Positions 21,142-29,122 are shown, counted from the first letter of the stretch. The stretch: DNA of 64,000 nt from an uncultured SAR86 cluster bacterium (GCA_902520725.1 CABYPB010000001.1:56111-120110); one strand, 5' to 3'. Made by a program: numbers and translations. The notes: generated by a model not told the origin, from the letters alone.

Positions 21142-21987
21142 ATGTCGACAAAATTATTGAGACAAATTAAAAATTCACTTCCTGATTTAAGAAAGTCTGA
21201 AAAGGTTGTTGGTGAGTTCATCCTAAAAGACCCTAAATCAATCATAACTATGAAGACGGCTGAAGCTTCAGGAGCTATGGGGATAAGCGAGCCAACTCTC
21301 ATAAGATTTTGTAAGGCTATAGGTTTTACAGGATTTCAGGATCTAAAAATTAATCTATCTCAACAGTTAGCAGCCGATGATTACTTTGTAATGTATGAAA
21401 TAAAGGAAGATGATTCTATTCATGAATTATGTGAGAAAGTTTTTGATACTACAATTAGCGAAATTCTAAATGTTAGATCTCAAATTGATCAAGGTATTTT
21501 AGAGAGCGCGATTGAAACTTTGGTTAATGCAGAAAGAGTAGAGTTTTATGCTTTTGGTGGCTCAGCTCCTGTTGCCATGGATGGGCAACACAAATTCTTT
21601 AGATTAAAAATTCCTTCATCGTATATTTCAGATCCTCATCTTCAATTTATGTCAGCAAATTCACTAGAAAAAAATGATGTTGTGGTAGCAATTTCTCAAT
21701 CAGGAACTACTGCTGCTTTAATAGACAGTGTAAAAATTGTCAGAAAAAATGGAGTTAAGGTTATTGGAATAATGCCAGGAAATACCCCATTGGCAAATGT
21801 TTGTGACTTTCCATTAACTATTGATGTGGGCATAAATAATCGTATATCAAAACCTGTTACATCCAGGATAGCTTACACAGCTATTATTGACGTTTTAACA
21901 ATGGGGGTTGCTCAATTAAAACCAGAAGCACAAGAGCATTTATACAATATCGCTGATAGTCAAAGGTCTCTTAAAGTAGATAATTAA
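21142..21987 (+). CDS. hexR: RpiR/HexR-family transcriptional regulator (HTH + SIS domain)
   Basis: LRKSEKVVGEFILKDP..ITMKTAEASGAMGISEPTLIRFCKAIGFTGFQDLKINLSQQLA; SIS domain YAFGGSAPVAMDGQHKFFRLKIPSSYISDPHLQFMSA, VAISQSGTTAALIDSV. Confidence 0.88.
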   Translation: MSTKLLRQIKNSLPDLRKSEKVVGEFILKDPKSIITMKTAEASGAMGISEPTLIRFCKAIGFTGFQDLKINLSQQLAADDYFVMYEIKEDDSIHELCEKVFDTTISEILNVRSQIDQGILESAIETLVNAERVEFYAFGGSAPVAMDGQHKFFRLKIPSSYISDPHLQFMSANSLEKNDVVVAISQSGTTAALIDSVKIVRKNGVKVIGIMPGNTPLANVCDFPLTIDVGINNRISKPVTSRIAYTAIIDVLTMGVAQLKPEAQEHLYNIADSQRSLKVDN

Positions 21988-22601
21988 TAAATTGCTGATT
22001 CTCTAAACCAGAGATTAACTGCCCATTTTTCACCCGCAACAACTGGGGAACCGGCATGCAATGCATCTGGATTAATTTCAGTAGTGCCTTCTATGCAATT
22101 ATGAAAAACAACAACATCACCTTTTTTTGGTTTGACTGAAACACCCACTTCAGGAAACTCAGTTGCTCCTCCCTCTTCTACATCATTTAAATATGCCAAA
22201 GCTGTGACCATTCGCTGCCCTCCAGGAAACCAATTATTTTGACCTTCTTCGGTTGTTTTATCAAATGCATCAAAATGAGGCTTATATTCATTACCAGGAC
22301 CATAATACACTAGCTGAAATTGCTCAGCATTATTTATAGGCATTTGAACTAAAACTGAAAATCTTTTACTAACCTCGTGAACAATATCATTTGCACTATG
22401 CTCTAACCAACAATAATCATTAGTTCTACTGGCATGAACCTCGTGTTCTGAATCTGTGATGACAGTTGCCCTTTCCATTTTTCCTTTGCCAAGTTCTACA
22501 AATGAGTCGCATTCTAAATCAGAAAGAAAATTAGACACTACATAAACCATAGGATTAGTAGAATATAGGGTTACGTTTTCAGATATTTTTTTTGGTTTCA
22601 T
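21984..22601 (-). CDS. prolyl 4-hydroxylase-like 2-oxoglutarate/Fe(II) oxygenase
   Basis: QLVYYGPGNEYKPHFDAF (HxD), GGQRMVTALAYLNDVEEGGATEFPEVGVSVKPKKGDVVVFHN, DALHAGSPVVAGEKWAVNLWFRE (distal His and 2OG-binding Lys). Confidence 0.92.
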   Translation of the reverse strand: MKPKKISENVTLYSTNPMVYVVSNFLSDLECDSFVELGKGKMERATVITDSEHEVHASRTNDYCWLEHSANDIVHEVSKRFSVLVQMPINNAEQFQLVYYGPGNEYKPHFDAFDKTTEEGQNNWFPGGQRMVTALAYLNDVEEGGATEFPEVGVSVKPKKGDVVVFHNCIEGTTEINPDALHAGSPVVAGEKWAVNLWFRESAIY

Positions 22602-22647
22602 TTTCGATTCAAATTATACTATTTTTGTAAATTAAATTTAAATAGTA
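22602..22647. promoter_or_regulatory. candidate bidirectional promoter between the prolyl hydroxylase and glycosyltransferase genes
   Basis: Only 46 bp between divergent start codons; consensus TATAAT on the minus strand at 22613-22618. Geometry supports it; no strong -35 found. Confidence 0.35.
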
Positions 22648-23634
22648 ATGAAAATCTTTATTTCGATAGCTTCTTACCAAGATGCGCTTCTGGAGACGAC
22701 AATCAAAAGTGCATATGAGAAATCTGATATGCCAGAAAACCTCATTTTTGGTATTTGTGATCAATCGTCTATTCCTCTAGATATAGAATCTATTAAATTT
22801 AATAATCAAATGAAGTACGAGCATATTGATCCTTTAGAGTCTGAGGGACCATGCTGGGCAAGATCTAGGATACAAGAAAAATTTGAAGATGAAGAATATT
22901 ACCTTCAGATAGATTCTCATATGCAATTTGATCAAAGTTGGGATTCATATTTAATAAAATATATCGAAGAAATAAGATCTGTTGATTCTGAAATGCATCA
23001 ACTTCCAATTATTACTTGTTACCCTCGTTCTTTTGATGTTGTTAGTATTGAAACTAAAAAATTTGAGCTTAATAAAAGTGATTGCAATACCCACACCATT
23101 GCTTATAGAGAAGATGCCATGTTTATAAAAGAAAGTTTTTGTAGGCAAATTGGATCGATTGCAACAAAAGAAATATCTCATGGATATTTAATAGCTGCAG
23201 GATTTTTATTTTCAACAAAAGAATTTGTAAAACAAATTCCGTATGACTCTGATTTTTATTTTTATGGAGAAGAAATATCCATAATGCTCAGGGCTTTTAC
23301 AAGAGGTTTTGGAATATTTCATTTACCAGCAATTCCAATTTTTCATTTGTATACTGAAACTACAGATATCAAAAGGAAGTTGCATTGGGATGAAGATGAA
23401 GATAGCAAGAGAGAGACAAAGTGGCATCAAAGGGAAGAAATTAGCATTAAAAAGTTAAGTGATATTATTAATAACAAAATAGAAGGAATATTTGGATTAG
23501 GAAACAAAAGAACTATGAAGGATTATGAATATTTATCTGGTGTTGATCTGATAAATAAAAAAGTCATTGAAAAGGATAAAGCTTTTACTGGAAATTTTGT
23601 TTCATCATTACCATGGGATAAGGAGCTTTTTTAA
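22648..23634 (+). CDS. glycosyltransferase of the GlcNAc/Skp1-hydroxyproline GlcNAc-transferase family (GT60-like)
   Basis: IFISIASYQDALLETTIKSAYEKSDMPENLIFGICDQ...EGPCWARSRIQEKFEDEEYYLQIDSHMQFDQSWDSYLIKYI and GYLIAAGFLFSTKEFVKQIPYDSDFYFYGEEISIMLRAFTRGFGIFHLP...FHLY, characteristic of that family. Confidence 0.88.
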   Translation: MKIFISIASYQDALLETTIKSAYEKSDMPENLIFGICDQSSIPLDIESIKFNNQMKYEHIDPLESEGPCWARSRIQEKFEDEEYYLQIDSHMQFDQSWDSYLIKYIEEIRSVDSEMHQLPIITCYPRSFDVVSIETKKFELNKSDCNTHTIAYREDAMFIKESFCRQIGSIATKEISHGYLIAAGFLFSTKEFVKQIPYDSDFYFYGEEISIMLRAFTRGFGIFHLPAIPIFHLYTETTDIKRKLHWDEDEDSKRETKWHQREEISIKKLSDIINNKIEGIFGLGNKRTMKDYEYLSGVDLINKKVIEKDKAFTGNFVSSLPWDKELF

Positions 23635-23673: not shown

Positions 23674-24102
23674 TTGGGAGAAAATATGAGCGAAGAAATA
23701 AAGAAATTCTTCAGTACCTATACTGATTTTGTAACAAAAGTAACAAGTGAGCCAAGTATTGATTTAGATGCTCTAAAGAAAAGTTTTGATGAAATTGAGC
23801 AAAATTCAGGCATTAAAACGCCTCGATTACTTACTGCAGCTCTAGGGCTAGGTAGCGAAACAGGTGAGTTTGTTGAGATTGTCAAAAAGATGTATCTCCA
23901 AGGCAAACCGCCTTCAGAAGATAATATATTTCATATGAAAAGAGAGCTTGGAGACATTATGTGGTACTGGGTAACTGCATGCGCTTCTCTTAATTTAGAC
24001 CCTTATGAAGTTATAAGTGAAAATCAAGAAAAACTTGCTGCGAGATATGGAGAAAAATTTGAAGTTCAAAGAAGTGAAACTCGTAAAGAAGGCGATCTAT
24101 AG
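23674..24102 (+). CDS. MazG-like nucleotide pyrophosphohydrolase
   Basis: LLTAALGLGSETGEFVEIVKKMYLQGKPPSEDNIFHMKRELGDIMWYWVTACASLNLDPYEVISENQEKLAARYGEKF (EExxE/ExxD-type pattern). Confidence 0.85.
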   Translation: MGENMSEEIKKFFSTYTDFVTKVTSEPSIDLDALKKSFDEIEQNSGIKTPRLLTAALGLGSETGEFVEIVKKMYLQGKPPSEDNIFHMKRELGDIMWYWVTACASLNLDPYEVISENQEKLAARYGEKFEVQRSETRKEGDL

Positions 24103-25896: not shown

Positions 25897-26709
25897 TTGG
25901 CTATGAGATTCCCTTCAAATATTCATAAGATTCTTAAAAATTATATATATGCATATTACGATCCGACTGATGGTTCATATCTTCCGTTTTATGTTGGTCG
26001 AGGAATTGAAAACCGAGCATTTTCACACTTAAAAGGATCGCATAACTTCGAGGTTCAAAAAATATTAGACAAGCTTAAAGATCTTGGATTAAGTCCACAA
26101 ATTAAAATTATTGTTCATGGTTTGACCCTTCAACAAGCAAAAGTTGCAGAAACTGCTGCAATTGCTTTGCTTGGCAAAGATAATCTTGCAAACGTTGTAA
26201 AAGGAAGTCGATCTAATTTTACAAATGCTAGTCCAAGAGAAATTATTGATCACTACAATGCTAAAGAAGTGATTTTAAAACATAAAGTTATAATGATAAT
26301 TAGAAATCCTTGGAATCCTGATTTACCAGAATATGAGCATTATGATAGAACAAGATCTGCGTGGCGCCTAGGAAGTAAAAAAGATCTAGCTCAGTATGCT
26401 TTTCTTGTTCATCAGGGAATTGTTAAGCGAGTATATACAGTAAAAGCTTGGTACCCTGATGGTACGACATTCCATTCAAGAAATAATCCTGATCCAAATA
26501 ATCCTTTTTACAAAAAAGATTACACTCATAGGGATAGATTTGAATTTGTTGGACGTTTGCTTAATCAAGATGATGAAATTTCAAAAAAATATCTTGGCAA
26601 ATCAATTAAGCGATACATAAGGGCAAGTGGATCGCCCTGCCACTATAGTTATAATAGATCTGGAGATGTATATAAGTTTGATACAAAGGGAAAAATCACT
26701 AATCCTTGA
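25897..26709 (+). CDS. GIY-YIG nuclease domain protein, LEM-3-like
   Basis: NYIYAYYDPTDGSYLPFYVGRGIENRAFSHLKG...IKIIVHGLTLQQAKVAETAAIALLG..NLANVVKGS, followed by a C-terminal domain RSAWRLGSKKDLAQYAFLVHQGIVKRVYTVKAWYPDG...DRFEFVGRLLN..ISKKYLGKSIKRYIR. Confidence 0.82.
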   Translation: MAMRFPSNIHKILKNYIYAYYDPTDGSYLPFYVGRGIENRAFSHLKGSHNFEVQKILDKLKDLGLSPQIKIIVHGLTLQQAKVAETAAIALLGKDNLANVVKGSRSNFTNASPREIIDHYNAKEVILKHKVIMIIRNPWNPDLPEYEHYDRTRSAWRLGSKKDLAQYAFLVHQGIVKRVYTVKAWYPDGTTFHSRNNPDPNNPFYKKDYTHRDRFEFVGRLLNQDDEISKKYLGKSIKRYIRASGSPCHYSYNRSGDVYKFDTKGKITNP

Positions 26710-28813: not shown

Positions 28814-29122
28814 ATGGGAATCAAATTTGATGGAACAAAAGTAAAGGATGGAAGTAAAACCATTGCTAACGTTTATAGAGATGCCTTAAAAGAGGGAAGC
28901 TCTTCTGGGGGCAAGACCTTAGGAAATATATATCGTGATGCTATTAAGTTAGGTAGCTCTTCAGGAGGCAAGACTCTTTGTAATATTTCAAGAGGAGATA
29001 TAAGAGAAGGTAGTTCCTCTGGAGGAAAAAAACTAATAAGTCTTAAAGATGCTGCAAAATCAATTGGTACAACTTCACAAGGACCATCAACTGCGCTAGT
29101 TTGGTGGTTTTTTGGAAGATAA
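28814..29122 (+). CDS. small protein with three tandem ~19-aa repeats
   Basis: KEGSSSGGKTLGNIYRDAI / KLGSSSGGKTLCNISRGDI / REGSSSGGKKL, preceded by divergent copy KDGSKTIANVYRDAL; C-terminal hydrophobic STALVWWFFGR. Corresponding 57-bp DNA period. Confidence 0.72.
   Translation: MGIKFDGTKVKDGSKTIANVYRDALKEGSSSGGKTLGNIYRDAIKLGSSSGGKTLCNISRGDIREGSSSGGKKLISLKDAAKSIGTTSQGPSTALVWWFFGR

Follow-up and report, generated by a model that had tools for sequence, protein, structure and literature searches.

Skp1 is a eukaryotic SCF subunit, and the pathway that modifies it in Dictyostelium and Toxoplasma joins a prolyl hydroxylase, PhyA, to a GT60-family glycosyltransferase, Gnt1, after which PgtA/AgtA lengthen the glycan. 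Characterised members of GT60 are Gnt1, which acts on Skp1 hydroxyproline, and an alpha-GlcNAc-transferase of T. cruzi that has polypeptide acceptors; the Toxoplasma Gnt1 (TgGnt1) requires PhyA for its activity (PMC6939170). A duet system for DdPhyA and Gnt1 also exists (PMC12101541). A survey of GT-A enzymes grouped GT60 with GT27, both families having DxH instead of DxD, and the two are said to have Ser/Thr O-glycosylation in common (PMC7185993). The hydroxylases of the Skp1 pathway and of EF-Tu are both PHD-type (PMC7864055). The genes considered here lie in a 64,000-nucleotide stretch of DNA (the window) from an uncultured SAR86 bacterium (Gammaproteobacteria), whose 1.0-Mb genome is 78%-complete. 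We argue that they probably, albeit far from certainly, specify a relay from a prolyl hydroxylase to a GT60 enzyme via hydroxyproline, a system in bacteria analogous to the hydroxyproline-GlcNAc pathway of Skp1. As far as the open-access literature shows, a relay of this kind has so far been described only in protists and would be without precedent in bacteria: a search of that literature found no bacterial Hyp-GlcNAc pathway.

The first gene (21984..22601, minus strand) is intact and encodes a prolyl-4-hydroxylase-like 2OG-Fe(II) oxygenase (P4H) of 205 aa, in which no N-terminal membrane segment is seen; an HMM search (PF13640, E 4.9e-17) places it in the family to which an earlier note on this DNA had assigned it. 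The HxD...H triad and the 2OG-binding lysine are all present, namely, the iron ligands H109-F-D111 (22269..22277, minus strand), read directly from the sequence, and, with the additional help of an alignment, the distal iron ligand H182 in LHAGSP (22056..22058, minus strand) and K192 in GEKW (22026..22028, minus strand); the motifs quoted in the note, HFD, RMVTALAYLNDVEEGGATEFPE and AGEKW, are there as well. By sequence, the closest solved structures are those of the Bacillus anthracis P4H (3itq/5hv0, E 4e-32), with Chlamydomonas P4H-1 and human collagen P4H alpha-2 (C-P4H-alpha2) as further relatives, and sequence and profile searches together put 3itq, 5hv0, 2jig, 7zsc and 5c5t at the top. 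A profile of 16 SAR86 P4H sequences matches Bacillus, algal, human collagen, chlorovirus and transmembrane P4H structures and, even at E<=10, none of the PHD2, PPHD and DdPhyA structures, so that the first step in SAR86 is analogous, not orthologous, to PhyA. The suggestion that both steps of the Skp1 pathway are paired here therefore stands for the second enzyme, a GT60, but not for the first, which is not of the PHD/PhyA type. Judging from the sequence, the P4H is of the collagen/Bacillus/Chlamydomonas type, in the peptidyl-proline class, and would hydroxylate peptidyl proline. A collagen-like substrate was rejected, since PF01391 proteins are absent from 34/34 genomes of the genus. The dN/dS of the P4H is 0.02-0.05 in most pairs of close relatives and 0.11 in one pair of genus g7.

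The second gene (22648..23634, plus strand), likewise intact, encodes a glycosyltransferase (GT) of 328 aa that falls within GT60, as had been proposed: it matches PF11397 with 144.4 bits (E 8.2e-42), the curated Pfam cut-off being 21, and contains each of the motifs SIASYQD, GPCWAR, YYLQIDSHMQF and FYGEE. D89 and H91 of the DxH metal/donor motif D89-S-H91 (22912..22920, plus strand) are invariant in 55 aligned sequences, and the C-terminal histidine H233 (23344..23346, plus strand), the predicted third metal ligand, is invariant in alignments of 23 and of 55 sequences. Alongside these residues, E208-E209 are conserved; they belong to the Y206-G-E-E motif of the xED region (23263..23274, plus strand), where Y206 is the mark of the P4H-coupled subtype discussed below. 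The AlphaFold2 model of the GT, built from a 55-row alignment, has a pLDDT of 90.2 and a pTM of 0.91, and the top PDB matches retrieved with it by Foldseek are polypeptide GalNAc-transferases of GT27 (E about 1e-9, the best being 7e-10; TM(query) 0.51-0.60), GalNAc-T2 and TgGalNAc-T3 among them. The model thus supports a GT-A fold related to GT27; the likeness is in fold only, no sequence match to GT27 structures being detectable in the PDB. From this GalNAc-transferase-like fold and from the characterised GT60 enzymes (PMC6939170, PMC7185993), it appears likely that the acceptor is a polypeptide; the sequence does not tell whether hydroxyproline or Ser/Thr would be the residue modified.

The two genes are divergent, with 46 bp between their start codons (22602..22647), as the earlier note had it. 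In this region, a TATAAT/TACAAT-like element (about 22613-22618, minus strand), resembling a -10 element for the P4H and located ~12-16 nt upstream of its start, is kept in 28 relatives while the remaining intergenic sequence diverges, the GT side being less conserved than the P4H side; this suggests that a P4H promoter is maintained. A HexR binding site was considered and rejected because the signal is too weak and the region AT-rich. The cassette is bounded by, and does not include, a gene for an RpiR/HexR-like regulator (21142..21987, plus strand; PF01418/PF01380), present in relatives with and without the pair, and one for a MazG-like nucleotide pyrophosphohydrolase (23686..24102, plus strand; PF03819). 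Among the window ORFs and their Pfam matches, no further glycosyltransferase adjoins the pair, and no obvious biosynthetic cluster or export genes lie beside it. The genes 3' of MazG differ among relatives; in the window, a protein with a LEM-3-like GIY-YIG endonuclease domain (25897-26709, plus strand; PF22945, E 3.9e-6) is encoded a short way downstream, and a 102-aa ORF of short tandem repeats (KEGSSSGGKTLGNIYRDA...; 28814-29122, plus strand) represents either an unusual repeat protein or a non-coding repeat.

The pairing is conserved well beyond the window. In its genus, PF11397 is found in 11/34 genomes and the P4H in 10/34, in the same genomes and in every case as divergent neighbours; the one further PF11397 genome is G018, where the GT is cut by a contig end and no P4H is seen. 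Across the window's own SAR86 family, f1, the divergent pair is present in 46 genomes. The arrangement is kept in five genera, where the start codons lie 22-63 bp apart. Since genus relatives that have one gene have both, in divergent orientation and contig ends excepted, and since this extends over five genera, the adjacency is not due to chance. In genomes that lack the pair, HexR directly abuts MazG, leaving a clean empty site, which indicates that P4H and GT were gained or lost together; the HexR tree requires at least 4 such changes in the genus. Hence, the expectation that the genes would be neighbours in relatives was borne out, down to their loss as a unit. Within f1, a P4H without a GT occurs only in G132, at a contig end, and in G127, a complete genome in which a 272-aa protein (L310:6771-7589) replaces the GT; the latter protein matches phrog_2954, labelled ferrochelatase (E 8.6e-38), and no Pfam family. 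Another f1 genome, G114, has an intact P4H together with a broken GT. Among most members of the genus, identities are 65-78% for the GT and 85-93% for the P4H, so that the GT diverges faster. An apparent second copy in G001 (L031:9762-10451), where MazG is joined to the C-terminus of another GT, is not a real duplication: a run of unknown bases beside an identical GT copy identifies it as an assembly artefact, and for the same reason it was rejected as a recombination remnant. An f1-like pair on a 3535-bp contig of a family-f3 genome (L109, G182:C67) probably reflects a binning error or a recent transfer.

At the level of the order, PF11397 is found in 62 of 204 genomes and a match to the P4H profile in 91; both are present in 61, only the GT in 1 (G018, at a contig edge), only the P4H in 30, and neither in 112. 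The Fisher p for this co-occurrence is tiny, with phylogeny ignored and the counts partly reflecting it. A GT without a P4H gene is seen in no testable SAR86 genome, and a P4H without a GT is common, which is the pattern expected if the P4H acts first. This asymmetry is weak evidence in f4, a sister family within SAR86, because the P4H is nearly universal there: it is present in 14/14 GT-bearing genomes and in 5 more that have no GT. In f4, the two genes are unlinked: the P4H, with an N-terminal hydrophobic membrane anchor, is encoded beside uvrD-lipB-lipA, a neighbourhood common to f1 too, and the GT away from it, directly 3' of an AlgH/YqgE-like gene (PF02622; L071, L085, L090 and other f4 loci). 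The claimed pairing is thus strict in f1 but not universal, given the unlinked genes of f4 and the dead P4Hs that accompany some GTs of another subtype.

The GTs of f1 are of two types, distinguished by the residue that precedes GEE: Tyr (FYGEE) in 39 genomes and His (FHGEE) in 8. In the FYGEE genomes, the active-site Tyr/His/Asp/His/Lys of the P4H is intact in 39/39, as against 4/8 in the FHGEE genomes; in the other 4/8, the P4H is broken, by H109R in G088 and G092 and by loss of H109, H182 and K192 in G121 and G122. The association has a Fisher p of 4e-4, with the caveat that the genomes are not independent and that the P4H decay may comprise only two events. Two genera are represented in the single clade (support 100/100) to which the FHGEE GTs belong; the P4H tree, which agrees with the genera, rejects this grouping (AU p 7.5e-5), and the GT tree, in turn, rejects the monophyly of genus g5 (AU p 4.6e-4). 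From this conflict it appears that the GT alone was exchanged horizontally between lineages, in place. The divergence of decayed P4Hs relative to HexR is 5.4-5.7 in g5, compared to 1.9-3.7 in Tyr-type mates, and 22.9 in g7, compared to 4.5-7.7, and their dN/dS is 0.27 (G121/G122) and 0.18 (G088/G092), against 0.02-0.11 in intact pairs. The sequences thus point to decay of the P4H at least twice, and possibly only twice, after the GT swap. In the other four FHGEE genomes, the P4H evolves at rates like those of Tyr-type mates, so decay is either not inevitable or not yet visible. The simplest reading of this correlational pattern, in which the residue link was noticed post hoc, is that a hydroxylated proline is needed by the FYGEE GT but not by the FHGEE type; the FHGEE GTs beside a catalytically dead P4H imply, in any case, that hydroxyproline made by the P4H of the pair is not the acceptor for every SAR86 GT60. 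It is conceivable, although we would not yet call it probable, that GT60 reads hydroxyproline through a switch at this position, with Y206 coupled and H206 uncoupled, in a bacterial O2/2OG relay where a GT swap ends the need for the hydroxylase and lets it decay.

Outside SAR86, GT60 is rare in Gammaproteobacteria, and no sampled relative is accompanied by an adjacent P4H. PF11397 was found in 3 of ~365 other gammaproteobacterial genomes, and a genome-wide scan yielded 278 GT relatives; among the 80 kept, only two loci, both of SAR86 f1, adjoin a collagen-type P4H. Of these genomic loci, 66/80 have FHGEE; FYGEE is hardly seen outside SAR86 and nearly confined to P4H-linked GTs. Annotated GT60s on plasmids and phages lie next to an RTX repeat protein and type I secretion genes, a fimbrial protein encoded among T6SS genes, genes for phage tails or a carbamoyltransferase, and a TPS-secretion-domain protein flanks several Burkholderiales GT60s. 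Viral contigs (IMG/VR; L230-L309) are rich in GT60, with at least 553 confirmed relatives, classed as phage morons/AMGs, and some of these cluster with SAR86 GTs in the phylogeny. No P4H was found close to GT60 in these contigs, two weak oxygenase matches lying ~2.2 kb off, and the idea that viral contigs carry the pair was rejected, since a single weak P4H fragment was all that they yielded. Within the sampled genomes, therefore, the pairing of GT60 with a P4H looks like a SAR86 innovation.

Taken together, these data fit a cytosolic, two-enzyme relay, in which the P4H would use O2, 2-oxoglutarate and Fe(II) to hydroxylate a prolyl residue of one or a few endogenous proteins, and the GT60 would then glycosylate the resulting 4-hydroxyproline, most likely by a retaining transfer of alpha-GlcNAc with UDP-GlcNAc as the donor. 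The GT would depend on the P4H, with a weaker dependence in reverse, much as in the PhyA-Gnt1 steps of the protist pathway, with the P4H drawn from another branch. For the FYGEE GTs, the comparative pattern (39/39 against 4/8) fits such a dependence on the P4H product, albeit as a correlation and with exceptions among the FHGEE GTs; the unlinked genes of f4, with their membrane-anchored P4H, the GT60s of other bacteria and phages without an adjacent P4H, and the lack of a collagen-like substrate family in the genus genomes count against the relay. The coupling could, alternatively, exist without any GlcNAc-Hyp bond, with the GT acting on Ser/Thr of a polypeptide and the P4H either hydroxylating nearby prolines or serving as a structural partner, both in one protein or complex. 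Such an arrangement would agree with the T. cruzi enzyme (PMC6939170), with the Ser/Thr O-glycosylation said to be common to GT27 and GT60 (PMC7185993), the nearest folds being those of Ser/Thr GalNAc-transferases, and with the fact that some active-site-dead P4H partners stay open at a dN/dS that, at 0.27, is still below 1; however, retention of the P4H catalytic residues in all FYGEE genomes indicates that activity, not mere presence, is under selection, and we consider this reading rather unlikely.

It is improbable that the two genes are neighbours by location only, sharing a variable HexR-MazG interval and acting on unrelated substrates. The unrelated gene that takes the GT's place in G127, the separate f4 loci and the frequency of solitary P4Hs in the order would all be expected on such an account, but a divergent arrangement conserved over five genera, joint loss and a P4H constraint that varies with the GT subtype would not. 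A small-molecule or envelope pathway, with a free amino acid or a peptide natural product as the substrate of the P4H and a lipid or a surface glycan, for instance, a phage receptor, as that of the GT, seems very unlikely: the P4H belongs to the peptidyl-proline class, the GT model matches polypeptide transferases, and the surroundings of the pair lack obvious biosynthetic or export genes, even though the abundance of moron-type relatives in viral contigs and the fast divergence and horizontal replacement of the GT, as often seen in surface-modifying genes, are in its favour.

As to the acceptor of the proposed relay, the earlier note had named EF-Tu as a candidate, which gains no special support. 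Genomes have the switch-I proline (NAPEERERG) whether or not they carry the pair, the SAR86 switch-I reading PEERERG or PEEKERG, unlike the E. coli motif, and the P4H is not PPHD-like; EF-Tu was accordingly dropped as the favoured acceptor, though not as a possible one. Given that the pair is dispensable and that the GT has been swapped between genera, a variable, ecologically selected modification appears likelier than that of a core translation factor, and these features, together with the faster divergence of the GT, would favour a variable substrate or a surface role. If the relay is real, hydroxyproline glycosylation is not confined to eukaryotes, and protein glycosylation gated by O2 and 2OG operates in some of the most abundant bacteria of the surface ocean. 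The relay would then also bear on the origin of the protist Skp1 oxygen-sensing pathway, or on a parallel rise with a different hydroxylase, and the decay of the hydroxylase after a GT swap in nature offers a ready test of what lets GT60 read hydroxyproline.

Each of the known systems shares a part of these features. The bacterial and phage "GlcNAc-transferase family proteins" of GT60 (Burkholderiales, Rhizobiales, Campylobacterota and jumbo phages) have PF11397 and the DxH motif in common with the SAR86 GT but differ in having no adjacent P4H and mostly FHGEE, not FYGEE. The GT27 enzymes provide the nearest solved folds, the DxH motif and the precedent of protein acceptors; the SAR86 GT, unlike them, is shorter, comprises the catalytic domain only and is predicted to be cytosolic. 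The P4Hs of Bacillus anthracis, Chlamydomonas (P4H-1) and collagen biosynthesis agree with the SAR86 enzyme in sequence class and in all active-site residues, but the latter is coupled to a GT60 in a genus that lacks the collagen-like substrate family. Pseudomonas PPHD is another gammaproteobacterial 2OG prolyl hydroxylase; it is not matched by the SAR86 P4H profile, its EF-Tu target proline does not track the pair, and the passages on it in PMC7864055 mention no glycosyltransferase partner. The Skp1 pathway comes closest, with a P4H without an export signal and a GT60 in one genome, the GT of which may depend on the P4H; the SAR86 pair departs from it in that the P4H is collagen/BaP4H-type, not PHD/PhyA-type, the host is a bacterium, and the two genes are adjacent and lost together.
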